Below are positions 18,735-40,687 of a stretch of 64,000 nt of DNA, in pieces; the first letter of the stretch is position 1, and each line of letters starts with the position of its first letter. A program made the position numbers and the translations under genes. The DNA comes from Beroe forskalii. Its lineage: Eukaryota; Ctenophora; Nuda; Beroida; Beroidae. The stretch spans positions 62,001 through 126,000 of the forward strand of contig WFMF01000354.1 of NCBI GenBank assembly GCA_011033025.1, written 5' to 3'. The notes beneath the pieces are model-generated. The model had not been told where the DNA came from. It ran no database searches and worked only from the letters and a program-made list of their open reading frames with translations.

Positions 18735-19120
18735 TAAACTATTCTGTGCTTTACTAATTTTCGAGATATAAAGTCAAACGCAATAGGGAATACTGACGGA
18801 AATTGTTCAAAAATGACTAAAGTCGATTTTGGACATGTTGCCACCATTGAAATTTTCTGAAATTTTTCAGGGACGTTCATTTTATCATTTTCTTTCAGAA
18901 ACCACCAAGAAAATTGGGGGCTATGAGCTAATTTTCGAGATATAAGGTCAAACGCATGGAAATACCGACGAAAGTGGTTCAAAATGACAAAAAATCGATT
19001 CTTGGACATGTTCGCACCGTTAAATTGTCTGAAAATTTGTAGGGATGTTCATCTTATCATTATCTTTCAAAGACCATCAAGAAAATTGAGGATCCATGTG
19101 TTTTTATCGAGAAATAAGGG
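18735..19120. repeat. Tandem duplication with a period of about 174 bp
   Basis: ATTTTCGAGATATAA starts near 18757 and again near 18931, each followed by GTCAAACGCA and later by GGACATGTT. A third partial unit begins near 19096. The words resemble the module found in the foldback elements at 2.5, 33 and 62 kb, but this is a looser match. Confidence 0.65.
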
Positions 19121-19144
19121 CAATGTTGTACCACAGGAACATGA

Positions 19145-19514
19145 TGAAAATTAGTATCCATTAGTTACCATTAGTATCCGTGGTAACTGGGTGGATACTG
19201 GGTGGATACTGGGTGGATACTAAATTTCAGATTTAGTATCCACGGATACTAATGGATACTGGTGGCTAATTTTTCTAAAAATAGTATCCACCGTGGATAC
19301 TAAATTAGTATCCATTAGTTACCATTAGTTACCATCAGTTACCATTTAGTATCCACCCAGTTACCACGGATACTAAAAATTGCCGTTAGTTACCATTTAG
19401 TATCCATTAGTATCCACGGACGAATTAGTATCCATCAGTTACCACCACTTTGTAAAAATCAATTTTCGTGGATACTGGAGCCCAAATTTGGTAACTAATG
19501 GTAACTAATGGTAA
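19145..19514. repeat. Array of two short words, GTTACC and GTATCC
   Basis: About 370 bases consist almost only of AGTTACCATT and AGTATCCA(CC) and their complements, in shifting order and both orientations. It directly adjoins the left 83-bp inverted repeat, whose own outer part contains AAGTTACCATT. It does not occur outside the right end. Confidence 0.8.
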
Positions 19515-19597
19515 GCGCACAACAAGTTACCATTTCGGACGATATACGAAAATGATTTTGATCGACAAACCAGATTGATCGAAGTTGATCAAAGTGG
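19515..19597. repeat. Left 83-bp terminal inverted repeat (intact)
   Basis: It contains three TTGATC words in its inner half and AAGTTACCATTTCGG in its outer half. It serves as the empty-site record for the element at 32975-37359: the sequence reads straight through where the right copy is split. Confidence 0.85.
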
Positions 19598-22500
19598 TGT
19601 GTACTTCCAGTAATTTTATAGAATACATGAATCTCACGACTCACTGAGCTTATTGTATGAACTTGTAAAATTTACTTGGTGATATGAAGTGAGAAATATC
19701 CAGCAGAAGATCAGGAAGCAAGACTGAAGTATTGAAGTGTTGATCAGTTTCTGGGAGAACTGGATAACAACAGACAGGTTACGTGGGTTACTGTAACTTG
19801 CTGGTACAGGGAGGCAGAAGTCAATACACAGATATGTGTGTTGACTGTCTCGAGTGTAGGTGGTACATTGTGCTACTCCACTACTAAACAGCATCCCACA
19901 ATCTGAAAATACAGCATGGTTACACGGTAATTAGGTGGTTATTATGTGGTGAGATCAAGTCATATCCACCCAAGAGAGAACAGCTTCTTTAATTGAATTA
20001 AACAAGAAATCCATAGCAAATGTAATGTTTGTGATAGATCTAAATCTAAACTCTGAAATTAGTGTACTTCCAGTAATTTTATAGAATACATGAATCTCAC
20101 GACTCACTGAGCTTATTGTATGAACTTGTAAAATTTACTTGGTGATATGAAGTGAGAAATATCCAGCAGAAGATCAGGAAGCAAGACTGAAGTATTGAAG
20201 TGTTGATCAGTTTCTGGGAGAACTGGATAACAACAGACAGGTTACGTGGGTTACTGTAACTTGCTGGTACAGGGAGGCAGAAGTCAATACACAGATATGT
20301 GTGTTGACTGTCTCGAGTGTAGGTGGTACATTGTGCTACTCCACTACTAAACAGCATCCCACAATCTGAAAATACAGCATGGTTACACGGTAATTAGGTG
20401 GTTATTATGTGGTGAGATCGAGTCATATCCACCCAAGAGAGAACAGCTTCTTTAATTGAATTAAACAAGAAATCCATAGCAAATGTAATGTTTGTGATAG
20501 ATCTAAATCTAAACTCTGAAATTAGTGTACTTCCAGTAATTTTATAGAATACATGAATCTCACGACTCACTGAGCTTATTGTATGAACTTGTAAAATTTA
20601 CTTGGTGATATGAAGTGAGAAATATCCAGCAGAAGATCAGGAAGCAAGACTGAAGTATTGAAGTGTTGATCAGTTTCTGGGAGAACTGGATAACAACAGA
20701 CAGGTTACGTGGGTTACTGTAACTTGCTGGTACAGGGAGGCAGAAGTCAATACACAGATATGTGTGTTGACTGTCTCGAGTGTAGGTGGTACATTGTGCT
20801 ACTCCACTACTAAACAGCATCCCACAATCTGAAAATACAGCATGGTTACACGGTAATTAGGTGGTTATTATGTGGTGAGATCGAGTCATATCCACCCAAG
20901 AGAGAACAGCTTCTTTAATTGAATTAAACAAGAAATCCATAGCAAATGTAATGTTTGTGATAGATCTAAATCTAAACTCTGAAATTAGTGTACTTCCAGT
21001 AATTTTATAGAATACATGAATCTCACGACTCACTGAGCTTATTGTATGAACTTGTAAAATTTACTTGGTGATATGAAGTGAGAAATATCCAGCAGAAGAT
21101 CAGGAAGCAAGACTGAAGTATTGAAGTGTTGATCAGTTTCTGGGAGAACTGGATAACAACAGACAGGTTACGTGGGTTACTGTAACTTGCTGGTACAGGG
21201 AGGCAGAAGTCAATACACAGATAAGTGTGTTGACTGTCTCGAGTGTAGGTGGTACATTGTGCTACTCCACTACTAAACAGCATCCCACAATCTGAAAATA
21301 CAGCATGGTTACACGGTAATTAGGTGGTTATTATGTGGTGAGATCGAGTCATATCCACCCAAGAGAGAACAGCTTCTTTAATTGAATTAAACAAGAAATC
21401 CATAGCAAATGTAATGTTTGTGATAGATCTAAATCTAAACTCTGAAATTAGTGTACTTCCAGTAATTTTATAGAATACATGAATCTCACGACTCACTGAG
21501 CTTATTGTATGAACTTGTAAAATTTACTTGGTGATATGAAGTGAGAAATATCCAGCAGAAGATCAGGAAGCAAGACTGAAGTATTGAAGTGTTGATCAGT
21601 TTCTGGGAGAACTGGATAACAACAGACAGGTTACGTGGGTTACTGTAACTTGCTGGTACAGGGAGGCAGAAGTCAATACACAGATATGTGTGTTGACTGT
21701 CTCGAGTGTAGGTGGTACATTGTGCTACTCCACTACTAAACAGCATCCCACAATCTGAAAATACAGCATGGTTACACGGTAATTAGGTGGTTATTATGTG
21801 GTGAGATCGAGTCATACATCCACCCAAGAGAGAACAGCTTCTTTAATTGAATTAAACAAGAAATCCATAGCAAATGTAATGTTTGTGATAGATCTAAATC
21901 TAAACTCTGAAATTAGTGTACTTCCAGTAATTTTATAGAATACATGAATCACGACTCACTGAGCTTATTGTATGAACTTGTAAAATTTACTTGGTAATTG
22001 AAGTGAGAAATATCCAGCAGAAGATCAGGAAGCAAGACTGAAGTATTGAAGTGTTGATCAGTTTCTGAGAACTGGATAACAACAGACAGGTTACGTGGGT
22101 TACTGTAACTTGCTGGTACAGGGAGGCAGAAGTCAATCTGATAATGTTTGTTGACTGTCTCGAGTGTAGGTGGTACATTGTGCTACTCCACTACTAAACA
22201 GCATCCCACAATCTGAAAATACAGCATGGTACACGGTAAAATTTAGGTGGTGATTATGAAGTGAAATATCCAGTCATATCCACCCAAGAGAGAACAGCTT
22301 CTTTAATTGAATTAAACAAGAAATCCATAGCAAATGTAATGTTTGTGATAGATCTAAATCTAAACTCTGAAATTAGTGTACTCAGTAATTTGGATAGAAT
22401 AACAACAGATCAATCTGAGCTTATTGTATTACAAATCTATTTGTAAAATTTACTTGGTGATATGAAGTGAGAAATATCCAGCAGAAGATCAGGAAGCAAG

Positions 22501-25500
22501 ACTGAAGTATTGAAGTGTTGATCAGTTTCTGGGAGAACTGGATAACAACAGACAGGTTACGTGGGTTACTGTAACTTGCTGGTACAGGGAGGCAGAAGTC
22601 AATACACAGATATGTGTGTTGACTGTCTCGAGTGTAGGTGGTACATTGTGCTACTCCACTACTAAACAGCATCCCACAATCTGAAAATACAGCATGGTTA
22701 CACGGTAATTAGGTGGTTATTATGTGGTGAGATCGAGTCATATCCACCCAAGAGAACAGCTTCTTTAATTGAATTAAACAAGAAATCCATAGCAAATGTA
22801 ATGTTTGTGATAGATCTAAATCTAAACTCTGAAATTAGTGTACTTCCAGTAATTTTATAGAATACATGAATCTCACGACTCACTGAGCTTATTGTATGAA
22901 CTTGTAAAATTTACTTGGTGATATGAAGTGAGAAATATCCAGCAGAAGATCAGGAAGCAAGACTGAAGTATTGAAGTGTTGATCAGTTTCTGGGAGAACT
23001 GGATAACAACAGACAGGTTACGTGGGTTACTGTAACTTGCTGGTACAGGGAGGCAGAAGTCAATACACAGATATGTGTGTTGACTGTCTCGAGTGTAGGT
23101 GGTACATTGTGCTACTCCACTACTAAACAGCATCCCACAATCTGAAAATACAGCATGGTTACACGGTAATTAGGTGGTTATTATGTGGTGAGATCGAGTC
23201 ATATCCACCCAAGAGAACAGCTTCTTTAATTGAATTAAACAAGAAATCCATAGCAAATGTAATGTTTGTGATAGATCTAAATCTAAACTCTGAAATTAGT
23301 GTACTTCCAGTAATTTTATAGAATACATGAATCTCACGACTCACTGAGCTTATTGTATGAACTTGTAAAATTTACTTGGTGATATGAAGTGAGAAATATC
23401 CAGCAGAAGATCAGGAAGCAAGACTGAAGTATTGAAGTGTTGATCAGTTTCTGGGAGAACTGGATAACAACAGACAGGTTACGTGGGTTACTGTAACTTG
23501 CTGGTACAGGGAGGCAGAAGTCAATACACAGATAAGTGTGTTGACTGTCTCGAGTGTAGGTGGTACATTGTGCTACTCCACTACTAAACAGCATCCCACA
23601 ATCTGAAAATACAGCATGTTACACGGTAATTAGGTGGTTATTATGTGGTGAGATCGAGTCATATCCACCCAAGAGAGAACAGCTTCTTTAATTGAATTAA
23701 ACAAGAAATCCATAGCAAATGTAATGTTTGTGATAGATCTAAATCTAAACTCTGAAATTAGTGTACTTCCAGTAATTTTATAGAATACATGAATCTCACG
23801 ACTCACTGAGCTTATTGTATGAACTTGTAAAATTTACTTGGTGATATGAAGTGAGAAATATCCAGCAGAAGATCAGGAAGCAAGACTGAAGTATTGAAGT
23901 GTTGATCAGTTTCTGGGAGAACTGGATAACAACAGACAGGTTACGTGGGTTACTGTAACTTGCTGGTACAGGGAGGCAGAAGTCAATACACAGATATGTG
24001 TGTTGACTGTCTCGAGTGTAGGTGGTACATTGTGCTACTCCACTACTAAACAGCATCCCACAATCTGAAAATACAGCATGGTTACACGGTAATTAGGTGG
24101 TTATTATGTGGTGAGATCGAGTCATATCCACCCAAGAGAGAACAGCTTCTTTAATTGAATTAAACAAGAAATCCATAGCAAATGTAATGTTTGTGATAGA
24201 TCTAAATCTAAACTCTGAAATTAGTGTACTTCCAGTAATTTTATAGAATACATGAATCTCACGACTCACTGAGCTTATTGTATGAACTTGTAAAATTTAC
24301 TTGGTGATATGAAGTGAGAAATATCCAGCAGAAGATCAGGAAGCAAGACTGAAGTATTGAAGTGTTGATCAGTTTCTGGGAGAACTGGATAACAACAGAC
24401 AGGTTACGTGGGTTACTGTAACTTGCTGGTACAGGGAGGCAGAAGTCAATACACAGATAAGTGTGTTGACTGTCTCGAGTGTAGGTGGTACATTGTGCTA
24501 CTCCACTACTAAACAGCATCCCACAATCTGAAAATACAGCATGATTTTCAAACAAAATCTAAGTTTTAATGTTTTGGATTATTATCTGAAATTAGTGTAC
24601 CGCGCTCAAAATTATAGATATCCACGACATCTACTGTCCTTATTGTTCTTTAAATGAAAAATCAGATAAAGCATGGAAATCAAAGCAATCCTTTCTCTAC
24701 CGTGTCTTGAAATTTTCAGGGAAATGTTGTAAAGTAGAATTATCTCTCAAATGTCAACTGAAATTAGTGTATAACTGGCACTCAGGATAACGTAAAACAA
24801 ATCTGAAAACACTGTTTGATGCTCTCAGCGCCCCGTGCATTCCCACGGTGAATTCAAATCTGAAAATACAGCACGTATTAATTTCGTTGTTTGGGTATAT
24901 TTTGTCAGTTTCGTGAGTCCCGGTGAAAAAATGGTTTTATCAAATTTCAGCAGAAGATCCCAAGACTGAAATCATCATGAAACAGAAACTTAAAAACAGA
25001 CATATAATAATTAAACAATATAATAATTAACAGCCATTCGGACTAATTTTTTCTGAAAATCGAATCATGAGACGCAGCATTTGTGTACACAAATTTTGAA
25101 TAAAATGTGTCATTTTATTGCCATCTTGTAAAATTTACCGTTAGAAGCAAAATTTCCAGTAGTCCGAAAGACTGAAGTATTATGTGTCTGATCAGTTTCT
25201 GGCAATTTCAGACAGGTTACAAAACATCTTGGTCCACTTTTTATACAAAAAATGTGTGTACTGAAAAATACTTTGTGCAAAACAGCATTACACCCCTATG
25301 AAAATACAGCATGTTACACGGTAATTAGGTGGTTATTATGTGGTGAGATCAAGTCATATCCACCCAAGAGAGAACAGCTTCTTTAATTGAATTAAACAAG
25401 AAATCCATAGCAAATGTAATGTTTGTGATAGATCTAAATCTAAACTCTGAAATTAGTGTACTTCAAATAATTTTATAGAATACATGAATCTCACGACTCA

Positions 25501-27204
25501 CTGAGCTTATTGTATGAACTTGTAAAATTTACTTGGTGATATGAAGTGAGAAATATCCAGCAGAAGATCAGGAAGCAAGACTGAAGTATTGAAGTGTTGA
25601 TCAGTTTCTGGGAGAACTGGATAACAACAGACAGGTTACGTGGGTTACTGTAACTTGCTGGTACAGGGAGGCAGAAGTCAATACACAGATAAGTGTGTTG
25701 ACTGTCTCGAGTGTAGGTGGTACATTGTGCTACTCCACTACTAAATAGCATCCCACAATCTGAAAATACAGCATGTTACACGGTAATTAGGTGGTTATTA
25801 TGTGGTGAGATCGAGTCATATCCACCCAAGAGAGAACAGCTTCTTTAATTGAATTAAACAAGAAATCCATAGCAAATGTAATGTTTGTGATAGATCTAAA
25901 TCTAAACTCTGAAATTAGTGTACTTCCAGTAATTTTATAGAATACATGAATCTCACGACTCACTGAGCTTATTGTATGAACTTGTAAAATTTACTTGGTG
26001 ATATGAAGTGAGAAATATCCAGCAGAAGATCAGGAAGCAAGACTGAAGTATTGAAGTGTTGATCAGTTTCTGGGAGAACTGGATAACAACAGACAGGTTA
26101 CGTGGGTTACTGTAACTTGCTGGTACAGGGAGGCAGAAGTCAATACACAGATAAGTGTGTTGACTGTCTCGAGTGTAGGTGGTACATTGTGCTACTCCAC
26201 TACTAAACAGCATCCCACAATCTGAAAATACAGCATGTTACACGGTAATTAGGTGGTTATTATGTGGTGAGATCGAGTCATATCCACCAAAGAGAGAACA
26301 GCTTCTTTAATTGAATTAAACAAGAAATCCATAGCAAATGTAATGTTTGTGATAGATCTAAATCTAAACTCTGAAATTAGTGTACTTCCAGTAATTTTAT
26401 AGAAAACATGAATCTCACGACTCACTGAGCTTATTGTATGAACTTGTAAAATTTACTTGGTGATATGAAGTGAGAAATATCCAGCAGAAGATCAGGAAGC
26501 AAGACTGAAGTATTGAAGTGTTGATCAGTTTCTGGGAGAACTGGATAACAACAGACAGGTTACGTGGGTTACTGTAACTTGCTGGTACAGGGAGGCAGAA
26601 GTCAATACACAGATATGTGTGTACGCTGTCTCGAGTGTAGGTGGTACATTGTGCTACTCCACTACTAAACAGCATCCCACAATCTGAAAATACAGCATGG
26701 TTACACGGTAATTAGGTGGTTATTATGTGGTGAGATCGAGTCATATCCACCCAAGAGAGAACAGCTTCTTTAATTGAATTAAACAAGAAATCCATAGCAA
26801 ATGTAATGTTTGTGATAGATCTAAATCTAAACTCTGAAATTAGTGTACTTCCAGTAATTTTATAGAATACATGAATCTCACGACTCAATGAGCTTATTGT
26901 ATGAACTTGTAAAATTTACTTGGTGATATGAAGTGAGAAATATCCAGCAGAAGATCAGGAAGCAAGACTGAAGTATTGAAGTGTTGATCAGTTTCTGGCA
27001 GAACTGGATAACAACAGACAGGTTACGTGGGTTACTGTAACTTGCTGGTACAGGGAGGCAGAAGTCAATAGTACACAGATATGTGTGTAGGCTGTCTCGA
27101 GTGTAGGTGGTACATTGTGCTACTCCACTACTAAACAGCATCCCACAATCTGAAAATACAGCATGTTACACGGTAATTAGGTGGTTATTATGTGGTGAGA
27201 TCAG
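19598..27204 (-). repeat. 463-bp satellite array, left side, about 16 units
   Basis: Near-identical units begin every 461-463 bases (for example 19634, 20097, 20560, 21023, 21486, then 22873, 23334, 23796, 24259, then 25491, 25953, 26415, 26878). Two units near 21950-22450 are more diverged, and 24541-25310 is badly degraded. Each good unit has an 86-codon minus-strand frame starting MLFSSGVAQCTTYTRD, but the few differences between units almost all change the amino acid, so selection for a protein is not supported. The same unit lies in opposite orientation at 31570-32950. Confidence 0.95.
24541..25310 (-). repeat. Degenerate mosaic units inside the satellite array
   Basis: Short exact pieces of the satellite (CTGAAATTAGTGTA, CAGCAGAAGATC, CTGATCAGTTTCTGG, GAAAATACAGCA) survive in the right order, separated by unrelated sequence of similar length. 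The neighbouring units on both sides are almost identical to each other. The block is therefore much older, or altered by another process, than the array around it. Confidence 0.7.
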
Positions 27205-28287
27205 GAGGTATAAAAAGCTTGGTGGTTTTGCAATGAGAGATTGCAAAACTTTACATAATGCTTCTTTGTACTAATATGTGTAACAGCATGTAACATGAAA
27301 AATGGTTCACTGAGAAATGACAAAGACTTCATCAGATTTTACCACTATGGTGGACTGCAAAAGTATAACAACAGAACAACGTTGTGTAATCACAATGAAA
27401 AAGTGGACAGATGAAACAAAATATCTTTAAAGGATTCCTTAGTTAATGTGCATAGGTATTTGGACATTTGGTACTACCTATTCTTCATGAATTACCTTCA
27501 CAATTATTTAAAAAGAAAGTGATAATAAAGGTTTTATCTTTGGGATACAAATACAGTCATCTTTGTACAGTCAAGCCACAAAACTTTCCAACAGCTCTTT
27601 CCTTAGTCTTTGACAGGATCCAAGTGAGATACCTTCATCAGAGATCTAGGTAGATCCAAACAAATCTTAATGAGACACCAAAAATGATATGGTGTAATGA
27701 AAGCTAACACTGTGGCACATGGACTTGCGACCGTGTTGTGGGGTTGAATGCATTTGACGGGCTCCCCTAATTCTTCAAAGATAATTCTTCATTCCTAATT
27801 AATAAATAATATATTCTAAACAAATAATCCCACACAGACTTGAGTTATAGATATCATTAAATGAGGTAAATCCGAATAGAGGCCAGAGTTTTTAATGTGA
27901 GAAGATTTATTTTCTTAGGTTCAGTTCTAACCTTTGTGGAGGCCTACTACCTTGTGTCCAATGTAGGCTCTGGATTGATGGCGAAATGCAGGGTCACAAG
28001 GCTTTGGGCTTACTGCTTCCCCTAATGAACCATCAATCAGAGCTGAGATATAACCCTAGTCAGATATATTTTCAGAGTAAGAAGTTAAAGTATAAGGAAC
28101 TGAACCTAGTAATTGACCACCTTTCAAGTATAAAAGATTGTCAATAGTGTGTATACAACTTGGTGGATCAGAAGCAATTAGACACAATAACTGGTAAGGT
28201 ATAAGACCCCACTAGCCATACAAGTACAATGACATATCTCTAGCAACATATATCTGAAAGAGCAATATTAGAAATATAGTAACTTAT
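27205..28287. other. Core of the composite, no gene recognised
   Basis: One plus-strand frame of 61 codons (27468-27653) has no recognisable motif. No repeat boundary was seen before the inverted LTR-like unit. Confidence 0.4.
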
Positions 28288-29588
28288 TGTTGGTATCTCA
28301 CCACGTTCTACCCTAGCTAGCATGGAAAGATAGCTGTGACATCGGGACATCAGGAGGAAGAAGGATTATCCGGACAGTAGTGCGGTAGGCGGAGGATAAC
28401 AGAACTGAAGGAGAAACTCTACTTCTGTTAGAGGAGTTTGTACCCCAGTGGGGTAAGTTAAGTTGTTATTGTGTAAAGTAGTTTGTTCGTCTGTTGGTTG
28501 TTTCCTTGAATCAATGATATTCCTATACGATATACTTTATCATATATTTATATTCTCTTGGTGAGACCGAGTTCGTTTTGAGAGAGTTATTTATTTACGA
28601 TCTCAGGTTTTGTTTGGGCGACCGGAGTCAGCCAAGTCGGGACTTTTATTTGGGCGACAGGTGTCAGCCCAGTTGGGACTCGGGAGTTCAACCAGGCAGA
28701 CAGTGCCAGCCCAAGTTGAGGGCAACTTGCGGTGTGTAGTTGGGATAATGGTTGGGAGACTCTCAGTACGAGGACATTGGTTGGGACGCATCTGATACGG
28801 GAGTACAGTCTTTACCTCAGAAGCTGATTACCATCATCAACATCTGATTACGTCATCATCAACGGGCAATGGCAGTTATACGTCACATATCAATAGTGTG
28901 TGGTTACACAGTTATTAGGAACTGAAGTGTTATATTGATATATTCTGATTGTTAGGAAAGAGTTGTTATCTGAGTCAAGATGTGAGTTATAGGGAGAGAG
29001 CGAGTACACTTTGGATTAGTATACTTATATAGATACTATACATTTCTACTTTTGTGTGTTAACCAAAGTCTCTTCCTTTGGTACAGGGAACGGGGGTATT
29101 AACAGTGTACTGAGAGTCTCCCAACCATTATCCCAACTACACACCGCAAGTTGCCCTCAACTTGGGCTGGCACTGTCTGCCTGGTTGAACTCCCGAGTCC
29201 CAACTGGGCTGACACCTGTCGCCCAAATAAAAGTCCCGACTTGGCTGACTCCGGTCGCCCAAACAAAACCTGAGATCGTAAATAAATAACTCTCTCAAAA
29301 CGAACTCGGTCTCACCAAGAGAATATAAATATATGATAAAGTATATCGTATAGGAATATCATTGATTCAAGGAAACAACCAACAGACGAACAAACTACTT
29401 TACACGATAAAGACTTAACTTACCCCACTGGGGTACAAACTCCTCTAACGGAAGTAGAGTTTCTCCTTCAGTTCTTCCTTCCTCCGCCTACCGCACTACT
29501 GTCCCGATAATCCTTCTTCCTCCTGATGTCCCGATGTCACAGCTATCTTTCCATGCTAGCTAGGGTAGAATGTGGTGAGATACCAACA
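28288..29588. mobile_element. Inverted pair of LTR-like sequences with a 5-bp target duplication
   Basis: Arms of about 480 bp (28288 to about 28770, and about 29105-29588) are inverted copies of each other beginning TGTTGGTATCTCACC. CTTAT flanks both outer ends (28283-28287 and 29589-29593). The TG start, the length and the 5-bp duplication suit an LTR of a retrotransposon, but the two copies face each other and the middle of about 330 bases has no coding sequence. It is a fossil. Alternatively it is a foldback DNA element with long inverted repeats. The arms are similar enough to suggest moderate age. Confidence 0.6.
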
Positions 29589-29593
29589 CTTAT

Positions 29594-29939
29594 GAAATAT
29601 CTATTTAGATATCTAATTATAGATAAAGAGAATCATACTATAGAGATAAAGATTCACAATCACCCATTCTTTCTTTCTTTTATAAAAAGCTTAATAAAAA
29701 GTTGAAAAATTGAAAAGCTAAAAATAATATCTATGTACCAAAATAATAAAAATGTATATTGTGCTTTTAACGAATTCACCAATTTAATTTATGAATTAAT
29801 TCAATATGGAATTAAAAATTAAATTCCCTGACAAGCATTGAAATATAATAGTTTGGAAATATGACACATCTCATTATATCATAATCAAATATAATTAATT
29901 TAAACATTCAAAACTTCTGGATAAAAAGGAAATTCATAT
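29594..29939. other. AT-rich spacer, nothing recognised
   Basis: Very AT-rich sequence with no usable frame or repeat boundary. Confidence 0.4.
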
Positions 29940-30195
29940 TAACATATTAACCTAGTTTATTAAGAATTAGGAATGAAGAATGAGATGCAAAATAAACATT
30001 TGTTTTATTCTGACATTTGTTTTATTCTGAATATAGTAACTGAATCAAACAAGCAGATATCTATTATGTTCAATAATATTGATGGTGTGACATCAACCTT
30101 TGATACATTTGCCACTGAACTAACATTAAAGAATGGAAATTTTTCAATCCTTGCATAAGCTGAAACTAATCTAGATGAAAGTCAGGAATATTAAC
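29940..30195 (+). pseudogene. LINE endonuclease fragment, N-terminal end only
   Basis: The plus-strand frame reads ISIMFNNIDGVTSTFDTF, then NGNFSILA, a stop, and AETNLDESQEY. This is the familiar opening of a LINE apurinic endonuclease, up to the catalytic glutamate region (AETNL). Nothing of the reverse transcriptase follows. An in-frame stop lies in the middle. The preceding duplicated words (TTTGTTTTATTCTGA twice) also occur at about 38740. Confidence 0.6.
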
Positions 30196-30217
30196 ATTTA
30201 GTGTAACACGCTCGCTT

Positions 30218-30925
30218 GTGAGTTTCTAAAACTTCCTAAACCCGCATAGGTTAGGTGTGCGTACGCAGTGCTTCCCGCAACGCACACAGGGATATACAAT
30301 ATACGTGCTCAGCAATTCCAAACCTACATGGGTAAGTGTACGTGCGCCACGCGACGGCTAGTGTCCTATATAATTCATGATAATGACATCAGCATCACAC
30401 AGAACTATAATTAGGCGGATCTAGCGGTTGTTTAAAGATAATGGATAAGGGTTAGGGTTTTGTTAGGACCAGGATTTTTTGTCATGCCAAGTGTTGCTGC
30501 CCACTCCAGCTCTGCGCGCTCGCACACACAGACTCGCACATGAGACTTGAAAAATATGGGGCGGACAACGTCTGGCAACAAATATTTTTAGGTTTAGGGT
30601 CGGGTCTGCAAGATTAAGATTTGCCCTAACCAGGACCCTGGTTACGCGCACGGAGTGCGCCGCGGCAAGCCCCGGTTAGGGGAAATTATGATAAGGGTTT
30701 TGGTTGGGGTTATATTTAGGCTGATGATTCAAAAATATTGCCCTTTAGATCTGTGACGTCACTCAGCCGGAGTTATATGGGACACCTACCTAAGCTACGT
30801 GACCCACATAGGGATATACTATACGTTTGCTAAACATAAACACGTATATCCCTGTTATCGTCACGTAGGGAAGCGCCGCGCGCGTACACACACCTATGCG
30901 GGCTTAGGAAACTATACGTGTTTGA
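30218..30925. mobile_element. Foldback unit with a nested MITE
   Basis: The arms share AAACCCGCATAGG, TGCTTCCC and CAGGGATATAC in inverted order (30218-30355 against 30791-30925). The inner part 30356-30790 is a separate unit (see next entry). CG-rich words such as GCGCGCGTAC stand out from the AT-rich surroundings. Confidence 0.6.
30356..30790. mobile_element. Nested MITE with telomere-like TTAGGG runs (copy 1)
   Basis: The ends GTGTCCTATATAA and TTATATGGGACAC are inverted. Inside are ATAAGGGTTAGGGTTTTG runs and the phrase TTTAGATCTGTGACGTCACT, both also found in the unit at 39399-39653. The two are copies of one family; this copy has a longer middle. Confidence 0.65.
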
Positions 30926-31569
30926 TTTAAATTGCCCAAACCAGGACCCTCGTTTTGTGCACAGGAGAGAAAAGTAATTGAACAGAAATTGTCATGGTGA
31001 GGGGGCAGGGGGGACATCCGGGAGTGGGGGAGGGAAAAAATTGGGCTGGGTCTTTTCATGCTTGGGGTCATAGCAGTTAGTTGGGTACTAATGATTTAAA
31101 CTTTTTATTGGAAATTTAGACATACCAGTGGCTGCTTTGCAGAAGGAGTCAAGAGTGATATGATATTAAAGCTGAGATTTTTTCTGGTACATAATAAGAT
31201 TATCATATTGGATATTATGGCTGTATGGATATATTTTCTTTGCCCATTCAGTATCATATTCGAAGTTTGCATTTCTAACAGGAATGTTGCAAGCAATTTG
31301 AATGTTCCTGCAGGTATATTTGGTCCGATTTTGCTGTATTAGAACCTGGGCAATTATCTATTAGATGATTACTTCTAACATTTTTTGTGAATCAGGCTTC
31401 GAAAGTTTATATGCCTATGTTCCATAACATAGTGCAGATCAATTACAGAAAATATTCTAGTCTTTCATTACATTTTTTTCAATATCCCTTAAGAATAATT
31501 TGATTTCATCCGGTTTGGCAAAAACATGTACAAAAAATCCGGATCCAGTCCGGTCCAGTCCGGTTTACC
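30926..31569. other. Core of the composite, nothing recognised
   Basis: Short frames on both strands (31105-31342) lack motifs. A short TCCGGTTTGG/TCCGGTCCAGTCCGG patch lies at 31508-31565 just before the right satellite array. Confidence 0.4.
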
Positions 31570-32950
31570 AGATTTTTTAACATGCTGTATTTTCAGATTG
31601 TGGGATGCTGTTTAGTAGTGGAGTAGCACAATGTACCACATACACCAGAGACAGTCAACACACATATCTGTGTATTGACTTCTGCCTCCCTGTACCAGCA
31701 AGTTACAGTAACCCACGTAACCTGTCTGTTGTTATCCAGTTCTCCCAGAAACTGATCAACACTTCAATACTTCAGTCTTGCTTCCTGATCTTCTGCTGGA
31801 TATTTCTCACTTCATATCACCAAGTAAATTTTACAAGTTCATACAATAAGCTCATTGAGTCGTGAGATTCATGTATTCTATAAAATTACTGGAAGTACAC
31901 TAATTTCAGAGTTTAAATTTAGATGATCTATCACAAACATAACATTTGCTATGGATTTCTTGTTTAATTCAATTAAAGAAGCTGTTCTCTCTTGGGTGGA
32001 TATGACTTGATCTCACCACATAATAACCACCTAATTACCGTGTAACATGCTGTATTTTCAGATTGTGGGATGCTATTTAGTAGTGGAGTAGCACAATGTA
32101 CCACCTACACTCGAGACAGCCTACACACATATCTGTGTATTGACTTCTGCCTCCCTGTACCAGCAAGTTACAGTAACCCACGTAACCTGTCTGTTGTTAT
32201 CCAGTTCTCCCAGAAACTGATCAACACTTCAATACTTCAGTCTTGCTTCCTGATCTTTTGCTGGATATTTCTCACTTCATATCACCAAGTAAATTTTACA
32301 AGTTCATACAATAAGCTCAGTGAGTCATGAGATTCATGTATTCTATAAAATTACTGGAAGTACACTAATTACAGAGTTTAGATTTAGATCTATCACAAAC
32401 ATTACATTTGCTATGGATTTCTTGTTTAATTCAATTAAAGAAGCTGTTCTCTCTTGGGTGGATATGACTTGATCTCACCACATAATAACCACCTAATTAC
32501 CGTGTAACATGCTGTATTTTCAGATTGTGGGATGCTGTTTAGTAGTGGAGTAGCACAATGTACCACCTACACTCGAGACAGCCTACACACATATCTGTGT
32601 ATTGACTTCTGCCTCCCTGTACCAGCAAGTTACAGTAACCCACGTAACCTGTCTGTTGTTATCCAGTTCTGCCAGAAACTGATCAACACTTCAATACTTC
32701 AGTCTTGCTTCCTGATCTTCTGCTGGATATTTCTCACTTCATATCACCAAGTAAATTTTACAAGTTCATACAATAAGCTCATTGAGTCGTGAGATTCATG
32801 TATTCTATAAAATTACTGGAAGTACACTAATTACAGAGTTTAGATTTAGATCTATCACAAACATTACATTTGCTATGGATTTCCTTTTTAATTCTATTAA
32901 AGAAGCTGTTCTCTCCTGGGTGGATATGACTGGATCTCACCACATAATAA
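31570..32950 (+). repeat. 463-bp satellite array, right side, 3 units in reverse orientation
   Basis: Units start near 31605, 32070 and 32532 (spacing 465 and 462). They are the reverse complement of the left array and differ from it at only a few positions per unit. The last unit passes directly into the right 83-bp inverted repeat. Confidence 0.95.
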
Positions 32951-32974
32951 CCACTTTGATCAACTTCGATCAAT
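32951..32974. repeat. Right terminal inverted repeat, inner 24 bp
   Basis: These 24 bases, ending GATCAAT, are the inner part of the right 83-bp repeat. The remaining 59 bases lie at 37363-37421. The bases AAT (32972-32974) are repeated at 37360-37362 as target duplication of the intervening element. Confidence 0.85.
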
Positions 32975-35900
32975 TACTCCAGTAGCCCAGGCAAAGTCAG
33001 TATGCAACATTCGAGTGGACAAAGTTGCTCAACGGTTTTGGGTACTTCCAACTGTGCTTTATCGAAAAAATTCACTGCCCTTCCGTGAATCGACGTCATG
33101 GGTGGTGCTACGGCCACACCCATTTTTCGCATGTTTAAACGGCTGTAACTCCGGTTCCTTTTGGAGTTGGGAGCAAACGTGCCACCTTAAAATGACCGCA
33201 ATGGACACATTATGCCAGGCGGATGATGGTTTTGAAGCCCTAAGACCTTTCGTTTTCGAGTTACAGCCAAAAAACTGATTTTTCGTCACCCGCGAGCCAA
33301 CGCAAGGTAAAAATCGAACCTTTCGTTCCTTTTGGAGTTCAGCATGAAACAACCAGGTTAAAAATGACCGTTATCACCCAATGTTGGGGGGAAGATGATG
33401 GTTTTGAAGCCTTACGACCTTCTATTTTGTAGAAAGTGCACAAAAATAGGGATTTAAAAGCAGTTACAAAGCCATCGGACCTTATCGAAACTATATCATT
33501 TTTTCTCCGCATACTCCAGGATGTAAGGTCCATCCGTTAGCAACGGTTACTAGCCCTTCGGCCTTCAGGTCATGTAAAATCGATGTAGCTTTATCATGAC
33601 ATCTGATCTTGATGGCGATCTTGAAGTCCATATTAACCACGCCCTTTTTAAGGTCACGCGCAGGCTTGATATTTCATAACTAAGCTCAGGAAGGTTATTG
33701 GACGTAGAGACTTTTTTGGACACCAACGAAGCGCAAAGGTCATGTTTGTATACAACTTGTTCCTTAGCATATGCTTTAAAATGCTCAGGAAGAGACTTAT
33801 GGGCGAAGAACTGATTTTCGGGGCACCAGCAGGACATAGCAGAGTAGATTTTTGTAAATTGGCCCAGGAAAGTCATTGACACTTCGTTTTGGGTGCAAAT
33901 GAATTGTTATATCCATGTTTATGTACAACTTGTTAAATGATTATAAACATTATATTGTCCCCTAACATGTTCAGCAAAAGGGTTATAGGCGAAAAACTGA
34001 TATTTCGATGGGTGTCCACAGGGCAAAGTGGAGGTGATTATTGTACCTTAGCCCAGGGAGATCATAGAGACTTTGCTTTGGGCGCACTGCACAAACAGAG
34101 TGCAATGGCCCACCCCTTCATATTTGGCCCAATCTCATTCCCATAGGGAAGATAAGGCTCAGACCGAAGATAAGTTTTCAAATTTCCCATACAAAAAATG
34201 AACCCAATCATCTTCGCTTTTGAGCTTGATCCATTTCTTTTCCAGGTGCAGCTAAGTTCTTAAGTTTAAATCAGAAATATTTCTCTTATTTTGAGAAAAT
34301 AAGTAACAGAAAATATCCGAAGATTATCATCACTTAGGGTCATACATTGATTGATACTCGGCTTAAAAAGAAGCATGTACTGAAAAGTGTGTTTTGATAA
34401 ACAAATTACAGGAGTCTTCTTTTTAGAACAAATACAGTAGAACAAATTACAGGAGTCCGAAGATTATCATCTCTTCTAGTCTTAGCGAAGATAAATTGAA
34501 ATATTGTGGACATGGTAGTGGAGCCAAAAATCTGTCTCCATGTGTTTGAAAGCAAACTCCAAAATTTGAATACAGTACATTGAAATTTTCTTTCCAACAA
34601 CAATGAGTCACAAAAACATATCAGGACCTTAATTTCAGTTACTCAGGACGTCTGCTTCTGGGGCCAGGGCTGCTGCCCCAGATCCATGCTTGTCATTCTA
34701 TTCTAAAAATGAGTCTCAAGTCATATTTGGGCAACGATTTTATGTGCTCAAGCAGAAATAAATTTTATCCAATCCTATTGGTTGGAATTTGTGATCAAAG
34801 GGAGCAGGCCTCGAAAAGTCGAAAAATATTACTGTATGGTTCGGATTTTAAATTTTTTAGATATGGGACCTTAAATGGCCCAAAAATGTCAGCTGATAAC
34901 CCGAAGATGAACTTTTAATTTCGGGAAGATAAGGATGGCGATTTTCAATTAATATGAACCTATGCAATGGCTATGTTTATTCTTTTATTACAACTTCCTA
35001 CTTTGCTAATAATCATATCCCCTAAAATGGTCAGGAAATCAGGAAGGAAGTTATGGGCAAAAACTGATATTTGTGCAACTGTGATGCATAGAACCTTCCT
35101 ATTGCTCTATTGTACCCCTTGTCCGCTTGCACCTGCTGTATGCAGCCCGTGGCCAAATCTAGTATTTAGTTTGAGTTTGGTGAAGTTTAGCCTAGAACTT
35201 GAGGTCGATCAAGAGGCTTCCAAGAGGGCGATCAAGTTGAAAGGTTGGATGTCAGTCTTGATTTGAATGCCTCGAAAGATTGGAGGACATAATTGTCTTT
35301 TAGAACAGCATTCCACAAACTCTGACAAAGGACGGCAAATGAGTGATTGAACAGTGATTTTGAAAGGGTTGCTGCCTACATAGAGACTTTGTATTGGTCT
35401 TTAATAAGAGTATAAGAAGCCCGGTAGCCATGTTTGTACTTATACATATGATTTTTTAAAAACAATTTCTAGATAAACATGGCCATTTCTCTTCTTTTTA
35501 CTTTTTAAGACCAAATAAAAGTTTTACACGCTGCACATCATAAATGGATGCACTACTGGGAAGTGCCTATCTTAGCCATGAAGAAACTGGATGAGCTTCT
35601 ACATGCAACAACATTGGATATCCTTCTGGGAAAGGTTGAACAGGCTTGGTCTGATGTCCCTCCAGAGGCGTAGAGAACAGTATGTGATTATGCACAACCT
35701 AGGATCCTTCTTCTATGATCACCCTTGACTCGGAAGCTGCTATTTTAAAATACCCCCAATGAATAAAAAGGCAACAACCCTCACGAAATCGATGTTAAGT
35801 CACTCGTTTGCCGATCAATTCTTGCCTTGAATCTTGATCATCCTCAACTTGGAAGCCTCTTGAGAAACATTCCAGATCTACATAGAGATCTATATGATCT

Positions 35901-37359
35901 CTAGAGACATATGATCTATAGAGACATGGTTGATCATATTGCAGCACATTTGTACTGTAGTAGGTATGTAGGTAAAGATACCTCCACTACACCAAACTCA
36001 AACTCAATAGTAGATTAGATCACAGGCTGCCTACAGCAGCTGGTGGTCTAATTGGGTCCCTGTTGCAAGTGGAAAAGGGGTACAATAGGAAGGTGATATG
36101 CATCACAGGTGCCCAAATATCAGTTTTTGCCCATCACTCCCTTCCTGACCATTTTACTATTTTAGGGCTTATGTTTATTAGAGTATTAGCAAAGGAGCAA
36201 GTTGTAATAAAAGAATAAACATGACCATTGCACTCCATTTGTGCAGTGCGCCCAAAGCGAAGTCTCTATGATCTAACTGGGCTAAGGTACAATAATCGCC
36301 TCCACTTTGCCCTGTGGACACCCATCGAAATATCAGTTTTTTCGCCTATAACCCTTTTGCTGAACATGTTAGGGGACAATATAATGTTTATAATCATTTA
36401 ACAAGTTGTACATAAACATGGATATAACAATTCATTTGCACCCAAAACGAAGTGTCAATGACTTTCCTGGGCCAATTTACAAAAATCTACTCTGCTATGT
36501 CCTGCTGGTGCCCCGAAAATCAGTTCTTCGCCCATAAGTCTCTTCCTGAGCATTTTAAAGCATATGCTAAGGAACAAGTTGTATACAAACATGGCCTTTG
36601 CGCTTCGTTGGTGTCCAAAAAAAGTCTCTATGTCCCATAACCTTCCTGAGCTAAGTTATGAAATATCAAGCCTGCGCGTGACCTTAAAAATGGCGTGGTT
36701 AATATGGATTTCAAGATCACCATCAAGAACAGATGTCATGATAAAGCTACATCGATTCTACATGATCTGAAGTCCACTAGTAACCGTTGCTAACGGATGG
36801 ACCTTACATCCTGGAGTATGCGGAGAAAAAATGATATAGTTTTGATAAGGTCCGATCCGATGGCTTTGTAACTGCTTTTAAATCCCTATTTTTGTGCACT
36901 TTCTACAAAATAGAAGGTCGTAAGGCTTCAAAACCATCATCTTCCCCCCAACATTGGGTGATAACGGTCATTTTAACCTGGTTGTTTCATGCTGAACTCC
37001 AAAAGGAACGAAAGGTTCGATTTTTACCTTGCGTTGGCTCGCGGGTGACGAAAAATCAGTTTTTTGGCTGTAACTCGAAAACGAAAGGTCTTAGGGCTTC
37101 AAAACCATCATCCGCCTGGGATAATGTGTCCATTGCGGTCATTTTAAGGTGGAACGTTTGCTCCCAACTCCAAAAGGAACCGGAGTTACAGCCGTTTAAA
37201 CATGCGAAAAATGGGCGTGGCCGTAGCACCACCCATGACGTCGATTCACGGAAGGGCAGTGAATTTTTTCGATAAAGCACAGTTGGAAGTAACCAAAACC
37301 GTTGAGCAACTTTGTCCACTCGAATGTTGCATACTGACTTTGCCTGGGCTACTGGAGTA
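32975..37359. mobile_element. Foldback element, 4385 bp, inserted in the right end of the composite
   Basis: The ends TACTCCAGTAGCCCAGGC and its exact complement are flanked by AAT on both sides. Arms extend about 1.2 kb almost without interruption (32975-34100 with 36240-37359), continue after a nested insertion (34963 to about 35160 with about 36030-36240), and more weakly to the centre. Each arm contains two units of a module of about 170 bp (33183 and 33358) with CGAAAACGAAAGG on the complementary strand, then units with a CGAAGTCTCTATGA-like word. Frames across the arms (for example 36892-37275) follow the repeat units and have no protein motif. A 3-bp duplication suggests a Harbinger-like or CACTA-like enzyme, but this is only a guess. 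Confidence 0.85.
34110..34962. mobile_element. Insertion of 853 bp with a 9-bp target duplication
   Basis: The left arm of the foldback element is interrupted exactly here, as the right arm shows. TGCAATGGC lies on both sides (34101-34109 and 34963-34971). The ends share only a short inverted TTCATATT. The words GGGAAGATAAGG recur near both ends. Nine-base duplications are typical of MULEs, and eight to nine are seen in other cut-and-paste elements. No protein frame was found. Confidence 0.75.
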
Positions 37360-37362
37360 AAT

Positions 37363-37421
37363 CTGGTTTGTCGATCAAAATCATTTTCGTATATCGTCCG
37401 AAATGGTAACTTGTTGTGCGC
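37363..37421. repeat. Right terminal inverted repeat, outer 59 bp
   Basis: It starts CTGGTTTGTCGATC and ends GTTGTGCGC. Together with 32951-32974 it is identical to the complement of the left repeat. Confidence 0.85.
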
Positions 37422-37574
37422 GCGCGCATGACATATCAATAATTTGTGATAGTCAATGCGCGAGCAAATACGACAGAGTGTCGGATTTGACCCTAGGCAA
37501 ATATGACACCTTGTCGTTCCAATACGACACCCTGTCATATCCAATACGACAAGGTGTCATTGTTTTTTTTATGA
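37422..37574. repeat. Short palindromic repeats outside the composite
   Basis: AATACGACACC, ACACCTTGTCG and their complements recur several times in 100 bases, preceded by CGCGCGCGCATG. They resemble a single palindrome at about 17730. Confidence 0.5.
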
Positions 37575-37918
37575 GGGTAATGAATGTCCGAAACCTTCAC
37601 ATCTACCACTGCGGTAACGAAATTTTCAAAATACTCAAATTTAGAACCCCCATATGTATGTTCGAAAACTTTTTACTATCCAAAAGGAATGGAAAAGAAA
37701 CCAGACTGTTAACTCCTACCCCATCTAATAGCTTTTTCTATATAGGTAGCCTCGTATGGAATGTTGTCCGAGAACTCATCAAAATTTATGATTTTTCATT
37801 CAAAATAGGTCCTACTAAATCACAAATCAAAGAAAAAATTCTCAAAATCCAAAACGAAGGTGATCCATGTGATTGGCAGCATGGGACCTGGAACACTCTG
37901 CAGTATCATCAGTACTAA
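37575..37918 (+). pseudogene. 3' end of a LINE ORF2, 5'-truncated
   Basis: The plus-strand frame ends with RLLTPTPSNSFFYIGSLVWN, then FKIGPTKSQIKEKILK and a terminal DPCDWQHGTWN before the stop at 37916. The pattern of a TP.SN.F..GSLVWN block followed by K..IK..IL and an acidic-aromatic end is typical of the last 100 residues of LINE reverse transcriptase proteins. The frame continues upstream into the palindromic repeats, so the true 5' break is near 37575. It belongs to a different LINE from the one at 9-13.6 kb. Confidence 0.65.
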
Positions 37919-38978
37919 ACTTTATCTCGAAGCCTCCATGAATTAAAGACTATACCCTGTGCATTCAAAGTAGGCAGGAAAGATGATGTCATTATCATAA
38001 TATCATGATGTAGTGAGTTGATGACGTCAAACCGCCTATTTCTCGTGCACTGCGTTTAATTTGAGAATTTGCAGCAGTTACACATAATTAATTTATCTGT
38101 AATCACAATAAAATGAAAACCCCATGCCCAGTCTCTTGTTACATTGAAACATTCAGCCAAATTCATAAAATGTTTTGTTTGTTGACATAATATTGCCTAT
38201 TTAATAAGTTGATATTATGTAACTTAATGAGTTTAACATTAAGTATGTTGAAAAGTTTGAAACTCATCCATTTCAAGAAAATTGACTTCGCCTACATTAT
38301 ACAAACACAATAAAATATTCTTATAATGATATATACTAGAAACAAAGACTATCCTAGCTTCAAGTGCTGGTACACTTAAAGGAAGCAATAAGCCTCCAGC
38401 CTTGCGACCTTGCGTTTCGCCAGCACTTGTAAGCCTACCTCACTGGGTAGGAGGTCATCTAAAGGCGTGGGCTAAGTCAAAATCAAAGAAATTTTACTCC
38501 TGATCACTTTGTTAGAATTTTCTAATGTCCTAATGTTATACAATTCCCTACACCCTGATATCAGAACCCTATCATCTGTATGCTCTAATGTTAGAGTTTC
38601 CCTATCACCCTGAAACCAGAATCCCTCTATTAGAATATTCTAATCCATATTGATTTCAATATTACCCTGAAACCAGAATTTTTATCATATTTTGTATATA
38701 TTCAGTATTTAGGCGTGTATAAAGAAATGCGAAATAAACTTTTGTTTTATTCTGAAAACTTTTGTTTTATTCTGAATAGACGGGCAACGTGACGCGAACG
38801 TCCGTCGAACTCGATTACATGTTACAGCGGTATACAATTACACTGTGCACACCCCTAAATCTAAAAGTAAATTTACAGAACTGTTTCGTCGACTGTTATA
38901 GCAGTCGACGGACTTTCCCGTCGAGTCCAACTCTATTTCTTCTCACTGGATGGATTACAAATACAAGTGTGACGCATT
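37919..38978. other. Intergenic with short repeats
   Basis: The start is probably the LINE 3' untranslated part. A CAAGTGCTGG/CCAGCACTTG inverted pair lies at about 38360-38430, and imperfect repeats of CACCCTGAAACCAGAAT at 38560-38690. The 19-base phrase ending TTGTTTTATTCTGAA is doubled at 38740-38780. No gene is seen. Confidence 0.5.
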
Positions 38979-39398: not shown

Positions 39399-39653
39399 GG
39401 TGAGTCTCCCATATAAACGGGAGCCTTCGTTATCTATGACAATGACATCACTCAGAAAAATATAATTAAGCGCACCTAGCGCTTCAAGGACTAGGGTTAG
39501 GGTCAGGATTAGGGTCAGGATTTGTTAGGGTTAGAGTTAGGATTAAGGTTAGGGTTTTGGTTAGGGCGATGGTTAGGTTTAGGATACAGAAAAATTGACG
39601 TTTAGATCTGTGACGTCACTAAGAGCCGTTTATAAATATATGGGAGACATACC
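39399..39653. mobile_element. Nested MITE with telomere-like TTAGGG runs (copy 2)
   Basis: The ends GGTGAGTCTCCCATATAA and TATATGGGAGACATACC are inverted. AAAAAT lies outside both ends. The interior carries repeated TTAGGG and AGGATT words over about 110 bases and then TTTAGATCTGTGACGTCACT, as in copy 1 at 30356-30790. Confidence 0.7.
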
Positions 39654-39906
39654 AAAAATTCGATATTATATTTATTATTCGAAGCTGTTCGAATATCATG
39701 ATATTCGAAACTATTCGATATTCGCTCAGTATTCGATATTCGATATTCGAAAATCATGATATTCGATACGATTCGATATTCGCTCAGTAATCGATATTCG
39801 AAAGTTTCGAATATCATGATATTCGAAGAAGTATTCGATATTCGATTGTGCGAATATCGAATACCGAATACTAGCGAATATTTTCGAATATATTCGAAAA
39901 TATTGG

Positions 39907-40037
39907 AAGTTGATTGGGGTATGTTGAGTTGATTGGGGTGTGTTATGACTTGATTGGGGTATGTTGATCAACTCATAGCATACCCCTATCAACTCATAAC
40001 ATACCCAAATCAACTCATAACATACCCCAATCAACTT
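39907..40037. repeat. Perfect-ended palindrome of 131 bp
   Basis: AAGTTGATTGGGGTATGTT and its complement bound short repeats of the same words. It interrupts the ATTCGAATA array and would form a long hairpin. Confidence 0.75.
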
Positions 40038-40687
40038 CTAATGTTTTCGAATATTTTCGAATATGTTCGAAAATATTCGCTACTATTCGGTATTCGGTGA
40101 TTCGATATTCGCACAATCGAATATCGAATACTAAAATTCCAAGTATTCGATATTCGATATTCGCTCAATCGAATATCGAATAGTAAAATTCCAAGTATTC
40201 GGTATTCGAAGATTCGATATTCGTTCAATCGAATATCGAATATATTTTCGAATACCCTGATATTCGAAACTTTTTGAATATATTTTGCGAATATCGAATC
40301 AGGGCGAATATCAAAATATTCGATCAGACCGAATAACGAATATTCGAATATCGAACCCAAGTTTCGAATACTTTCGAATATATTCGGTAACCCTACTGAC
40401 AACCGAAGACAACGTTCTCAGGCGTTGCCTGAAATGCCTGACCCCTCGCGCGCGTTAGACAAAGACAACGTCTGACAAATACAATGGGTGACCGTCCAAA
40501 TGTGGAAACTGGAACTCAGGAACGGGAACGTTGCGTACGTAGGGGTAGGGTAACATAACATCCAACGATTATTAATTATAGAAGGATTTAATAGAAGGAT
40601 GTTACCCCGCGCGCGCAACGCTCCACATTTGGACGGTCACATTTGCGCTCTCCAGTCAGAAGAAATAGACGGGCAACGCCCGTCGAA

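Follow-up and report, generated by a model that had tools for sequence, protein, structure and literature searches.

How does a satellite come to stand in two opposed arrays between inverted copies of a single sequence, and could such a structure have moved as a unit? This question is raised by a stretch of the ctenophore Beroe forskalii (assembly GCA_011033025.1, contig WFMF01000354.1, here C419), of which we analysed C419:62001-126000, a 64,000-nucleotide segment referred to below as the window, with searches extended across the 216 Mb assembly and its 1,134 contigs. An original prediction, made from the letters of the window, had described exact 83-bp inverted ends, each followed inward by an array of the same 463-bp satellite in opposite orientation, and had read the whole as a transposon. 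We consider it likely that the window holds a damaged copy of a low-copy, non-autonomous DNA transposon of the foldback type whose arms are made of satellite. Its plan is already known from fruit flies and would show how satellite repeats can travel; what distinguishes this case is the length of the satellite units, about twice that of Tetris or Galileo F, the existence of two copies with one and the same junction between end and satellite, and a contig that lacks one of these copies.

The inverted ends and their true extent

The two ends form an inverted pair 18 kb apart in which 62 of 62 bp are identical (the copy at 19515 versus 37360-37421), far above chance. An exact inverted sequence is present as predicted, but the right copy is contiguous over 62 bp only, and the remaining ~21 bp sit 4.4 kb inward, behind a 4,385-bp insert. 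Nor are the 83 bp the ends of the element: the full terminal inverted repeat (TIR) measures 241 bp and opens with ACCCTCATAAAA, the 83 bp correspond to its positions 158-240, that is, the inner third, and the right outer terminus lies at 37578 rather than at 37421. Read across the insert, the right TIR has the same sequence as the intact one of a second copy, C419:10439-10679, in 219 of 219 outer and 25 of 25 inner bases, with a 3-base overlap.

Both ends of the window copy are damaged. The left TIR is without positions 1-157, an abundant repeat adjoining it directly, and the right TIR is split by the larger of two nested insertions, both of which came later than the element (Table 1). With both inserts and their duplications removed and the missing 157 bp added, the intact copy would by arithmetic have measured ~12.5 kb. 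End fragments on two other contigs, C346 and C647, stop at TIR positions 169 and 147, and the left TIR of the window starts at 158; these three breaks fall around the GCGCGCGCGC run of the TIR, a stretch that may be a fragile spot.

The same ends at other loci

Searches located the outer 165 bp of the TIR at six places, spread over four contigs: C419:10439, C419:99578 (window 37578), C346:6109, C403:400186, C403:410744 and C647:566230. Five of these six ends share the same starting base, ACCCTC, amid differing flanks, and the sixth is a broken end with its first four bases altered. The search with the terminal 25 bp, allowing up to three mismatches, for autonomous or further copies returned four places, all already known, the C403 ends escaping it through a one-base gap.

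The two C403 ends make up the complete pair. At C403:400186-410744, TIRs of ~563 bp that differ at 4 of 563 positions enclose an element of 10,559 bp (10.56 kb), the interior of which is unlike that of the window element, with only short or repeat-type matches to C419 and no 463-bp satellite found. Contig C336 carries both C403 flanks, at 72% and 80% identity, and reads GAGTAATAATGAT|AATAC where C403 reads GAGTAATAATGAT|element|ATAATGC, with one AT instead of two. On the left, the last 15 of 15 bases match up to the TIR edge. On the right, with transitions lightly penalised, the match anchored at the insertion point was equalled by 2 of 3,000 controls over 100 bp, and over 30 or 60 bp by none of the 3,000. 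The distant part of the right flank lies ~9 kb away in C336, so this locus would have an insert of its own. To judge from these alignments, C336 is likely the empty site of the C403 element, and a 2-bp AT target site duplication (TSD) can tentatively be proposed; the 8-bp flanks of C403 share 6 of 8 bases, and the 2-bp AT fits the site better than a TSD of 8-10 bp.

The second satellite-bearing copy, C419:10439, starts with an intact TIR, followed by one full and several partial 463-bp units up to ~11699, and its junction between TIR and satellite is identical to that at the right end of the window copy. It adjoins a MAU2 exon (PF10345) at C419:9834-10004. Contig C490 matches C419:9106-10448 at 94% and diverges within ten bases of the TIR start; its other side matches C203:751497-752327 at 95%, with 137 bp of C490 (the C490:98219-98356 region) found in neither contig, and C203 bears a different, abundant repeat at this site. 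At the C419:10439 copy the contigs differ in structure, for which haplotypes, paralogues or assembly are possible causes. The MAU2 region is continuous in C490 but split between C419 and C203, with the transposon end on one side of the split and the other abundant repeat opposite.

Mobility is supported by ends that are common to several loci and share their terminal base, by one complete inverted pair, and by a contig, C490, that is without the second copy from the TIR start. The original prediction holds up in this respect, as one inverted pair of ends surrounds an unrelated interior on C403, fragments occur on C346 and C647, and the end is neither limited to the window nor an inner part of longer satellite arrays. 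The genome-wide search for the end and its flanks that it proposed yielded the six outer ends and one complete pair; the shared target duplication it hoped for is tentative, with AT at one site.

An invariant hairpin at the outer end

The outermost ~85 bp of the TIR contain a strong hairpin. Its 52-bp core does not differ between the six ends, and no further place was found in the assembly when 1-3 mismatches were allowed in it. No substitution separates the six ends at TIR positions 5-85, although the C403 ends are without one A and four bases at 80-83. Of the 18 substitutions that separate the C419 and C403 TIRs over 241 bp, one falls within the first 86 bp (P = 0.004, for a cut picked after viewing the alignment and between ends that differ by gaps too). 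Folded as single-stranded DNA, the outer 165 bp reach -39.4 kcal/mol against a shuffle mean of -17.7 (z = -7.2, none of 200 shuffles as good). This invariant hairpin points to the part that a transposase should recognise.

Both TIR types contain TGTCG six times, three direct and three inverted, and three of the six lie inside the first 70 bp. The TTGATC words that had been put forward as possible transposase sites do not fare as well: on one TIR strand there are three in the C419 type and only one of them is kept in the C403 type, and we rejected TTGATC as a binding word because it is poorly conserved between the two.

The right TIR of the window copy is still identical over 241 bp to the TIR of the second copy, while the arms of the 4,385-bp insert that splits it differ by substitutions at 23 of 1,128 positions. 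Had these arms been identical when the insert landed, and had arms and TIR evolved alike, one would expect ~5 differences in the TIR. The identity is a hint that the TIR has been conserved or converted, although the arms of a foldback element may differ from the start.

The satellite arms

Tandem arrays of the 463-bp unit stand in opposite orientation in the two arms, with ~16 units on the left and three on the right, as had been predicted. We aligned 15 full-length units, 12 from the left array, two from the right and one from the C419:10439 copy. The left units share a mean identity of 99.06% (range 96.0-100), the two right units 98.3%, and left and right units 98.14% (95.4-98.9), the unit of the other copy being 98.3% identical to the left ones. 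The divergence outside the ends that the original prediction invoked is not strong, the mean difference between satellite units from the two copies being ~1-2%. In two alignment columns the innermost full left unit, and in one column the outermost, departs from the other left units and has the base found in the right units and in the C419:10439 copy. Such a pattern would be expected from a later amplification of the middle units; accordingly, the left array is homogenised and its middle looks recently amplified. A degenerate stretch at ~24547-25279 retains short matches to the unit. Two copies with one junction, and a contig without one of them, make the order of events testable: the satellite would be inside the element before the move, and expansion of the array in one arm would follow.

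A derivation of the satellite from the TIR, as proposed for Tetris, is unsupported, the similarity between the two being at chance level (184 of 300 shuffles as good) and the unit containing no TGTCG. Satellite spread by this route can be followed as far as two copies on one contig; beyond these the 463-bp satellite was found nowhere else, in match counts that are lower bounds.

Coding capacity and proposed mechanism

Pfam gave no match above the cut-off for 13 of 13 non-satellite open reading frames (ORFs) of at least 80 amino acids in the region, with two chance-level matches below it, and shorter exons are possible; the absence of a visible transposase, which had been predicted, agrees with this. 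For C403, Pfam gave no transposase in the three of 14 ORFs (at least 100 amino acids) that were submitted, and weak matches below the cut-off on ORFs with 78-bp repeats. No transposase was found among the ORFs analysed and no autonomous copy with these ends, no genome search aimed at a transposase having been made. The element is probably non-autonomous. Rfam at gathering thresholds gave no match in the window, and literature searches met no title naming this element, which does not prove its absence from the literature.

In the mechanism that we propose, each end would consist of the 241-bp TIR, with an outer hairpin module of ~85 bp and an inner stretch, followed by an array of 463-bp units, and the two arms would be long inverted repeats on either side of a core without coding sequence. 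Acting in trans, a transposase would bind the conserved TGTCG motifs and insert the element, perhaps with a 2-bp duplication. Within the arms the arrays would lengthen and shorten by unequal exchange or slippage, which would account for the unequal numbers of units.

Competing explanations

Local inverted duplication of the satellite and its flank, immobile and with C419:10439 as a segmental duplicate, is an unlikely origin. In its favour, all of the 463-bp satellite found is on C419, and a pair of intact ends with a TSD is present in neither of the copies that carry satellite. Against it, the TIR on C403 encloses an unrelated interior, in an inverted pair of 99% identity for which there is a likely empty site, and C490 is without the C419:10439 copy from the TIR start onward. 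It is quite improbable, in turn, that each end acquired its satellite separately, through insertion of a TIR element into an array already present or through capture of such an array. The related C403 ends without 463-bp satellite would suit such an origin, as would the chance-level similarity of satellite and TIR and the lack of TGTCG in the former, but the same junction and the same opposed orientation recur in two copies, and no 463-bp array was found outside them. We hold it very improbable that everything from C419:10439 to 99578 is a single giant element of ~89 kb, of which the left end in the window would be an internal remnant. Over 241 bp its outer ends do not differ, and each has AA beside it, compatible with a 2-bp duplication; such an agreement has a chance of at least 1 in 16. 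We set this element aside on account of a host gene, HSP70, inside the interval and a far side of the C490 site that has no match to the sequence past 99578.

Several points count against the satellite-armed foldback transposon that we favour. Neither satellite-bearing copy is intact, the window copy being without its outer left end or a testable TSD and the C419:10439 copy without an identified right end. The satellite was located on C419 only, with at least 24 matches in the assembly, and a local duplication could explain the satellite of the second copy, since all of it was found on one contig. Six ends are few for an active family. The AT duplication comes from one diverged site, and both C419 outer ends are flanked by AA and that of C346 by TC, rather than by AT. 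When all mismatches were penalised alike, the anchored right-flank match on C336 was only modest, 3-4 of 1,500 random controls and 36-63 of the 1,500 anchored at AAT doing as well. Without anchoring, the right flank aligned no better than chance, with 861 of 5,000 shuffles equal to it, and likewise 720 of 5,000 stretches of the genome.

A broader proposal, which we rate as rather unlikely, would place the ends in a TIR transposon lineage, so far undescribed, that recognises a hairpin end (six TGTCG motifs, an ACCC terminus and a 2-bp AT duplication), loads different long cargo, satellite here and unrelated sequence on C403, and seeds chromosome breaks, as the end at the MAU2 split might suggest.

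Comparison with known systems

By analogy of structure the closest known systems are Tetris and Galileo F, both of which carry tandem repeats in their TIRs, so the earlier comparison with foldback and Galileo-type elements was apt. As described in PMC4079207, Tetris is a foldback element of Drosophila virilis that has long TIRs with an external flanking domain, variable numbers of tandem units of ~220 bp, a core without ORFs and a TSD of 8-10 bp. Few of its copies are complete, and its longer arrays are the more homogeneous; its units also occur as free arrays, 39 contigs having these repeats alone. Our element resembles that description in its long inverted ends with an external domain, the opposed tandem repeats of variable number in its arms, its core without ORFs, its few complete copies and its more homogeneous longer array. 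It departs from it in the unit of 463 bp, in the tentative TSD of 2 bp, and in units found only beside TIRs.

For Galileo, a member of the P superfamily, the accessible part of PMC3573991 gives a P-type transposase and a 7-bp TSD and, in the F subfamily, tandem repeats of ~210 bp in unequal numbers in the two TIRs (two or three per TIR), which its authors connect with secondary transposase sites. Unequal repeat numbers inside the TIRs are shared with the window element, whereas the C403 flanks do not fit a 7-bp TSD and the satellite unit here is without TGTCG. The ISL2EU group (PHIS) is of interest for its AT 2-bp duplication; according to PMC4482050 its target is A|AT|T, its TIRs usually start with GG and measure 6-259 bp, and it encodes DDE and YqaJ. 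The AT at C403 is alike, tentatively and at one site, the C419 ends adjoining AA and the C346 end TC, but the TIR here starts with ACCCTC and reaches ~563 bp on C403, the target is G|AT|A, and no DDE or YqaJ gene was seen, no search aimed at either family having been made.

Features of the window and neighbouring loci

Table 1 Features of the window copy and its flanks (window positions; TIR, terminal inverted repeat; TSD, target site duplication)
Feature	Position	Strand	Remarks
Left flank, piece of ~396 bp of an abundant dispersed repeat	19119..19514 (start approximate)	.	92-99% identity; 35 other places among the matches listed reach 19514
Left TIR, inner part (positions 158-241)	19515..19598	+	84/84 bp identical to C419:10596-10679
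Left array of 463-bp satellite, ~15 good units and a degenerate stretch at ~24547-25279	19599..27202	+	12 full units, mean identity 99.1%
Core without recognisable coding sequence, holding nested insert 1	27203..31577	.	
Nested palindromic insert 1, 482-bp arms (10 differences), begins TGTTGG	28288..29588	.	TSD CTTAT at 28283-28287 and 29589-29593
Right array of 463-bp satellite, 3 units, inverted	31578..32954	-	
Right TIR, inner 25 bp, overlapping the last bases called satellite	32950..32974	-	25/25 bp identical to the C419:10439 TIR
Nested insert 2, 4,385 bp, arms ~1.13 kb (23 substitutions/1,128)	32975..37359	.	TSD AAT at 32972-32974 and 37360-37362; splits right TIR
Right TIR, outer part of 219 bp, which ends ...GAGGGT at 37578	37360..37578	-	219/219 bp identical to C419:10439-10657
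Hairpin core and TGTCG motifs in right TIR	37505-37556 (core)	-	z = -7.2, computed on the identical 165 bp at C419:10439
Right flank, copy of an abundant repeat	37579..38480	.	15 other places match all 902 bases, 94-99%

The 3-bp AAT duplication of insert 2 (32975-37359) is comparable to the ANT duplications used by Pangu elements, as given in PMC4482050. Beyond the element, the window contains a degenerate TAGGGT array followed by ATTCGA-rich repeats at 39492-40223, and a 53-bp minisatellite of 11 copies (95% matches) at 47926-48505; a formin FH2 frame on the minus strand (45247-46287) lies ~1.6 kb from the latter.

The C346 locus was considered as a third element with a 347-bp satellite of its own and C203 as its mate, and this was rejected, the sequence being a separate abundant repeat (43 matches including itself) and C346 having a 169-bp end fragment only. 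At C346:6290-11308 this repeat (771 bp searched) is followed by head-to-head arrays of the 347-bp satellite, with ~3 and 8 units. Further along the same contig, C346:50145-59625 encodes, in open frames, a DNA polymerase B domain and an integrase core domain, with a chromo match below the cut-off on the integrase frame, a set that we take to be that of Polinton/Maverick elements. On C419 itself, positions 3-1805 hold an open frame of 601 amino acids with a DDE_1 domain, a transposase gene of another family that is cut by the start of the contig.

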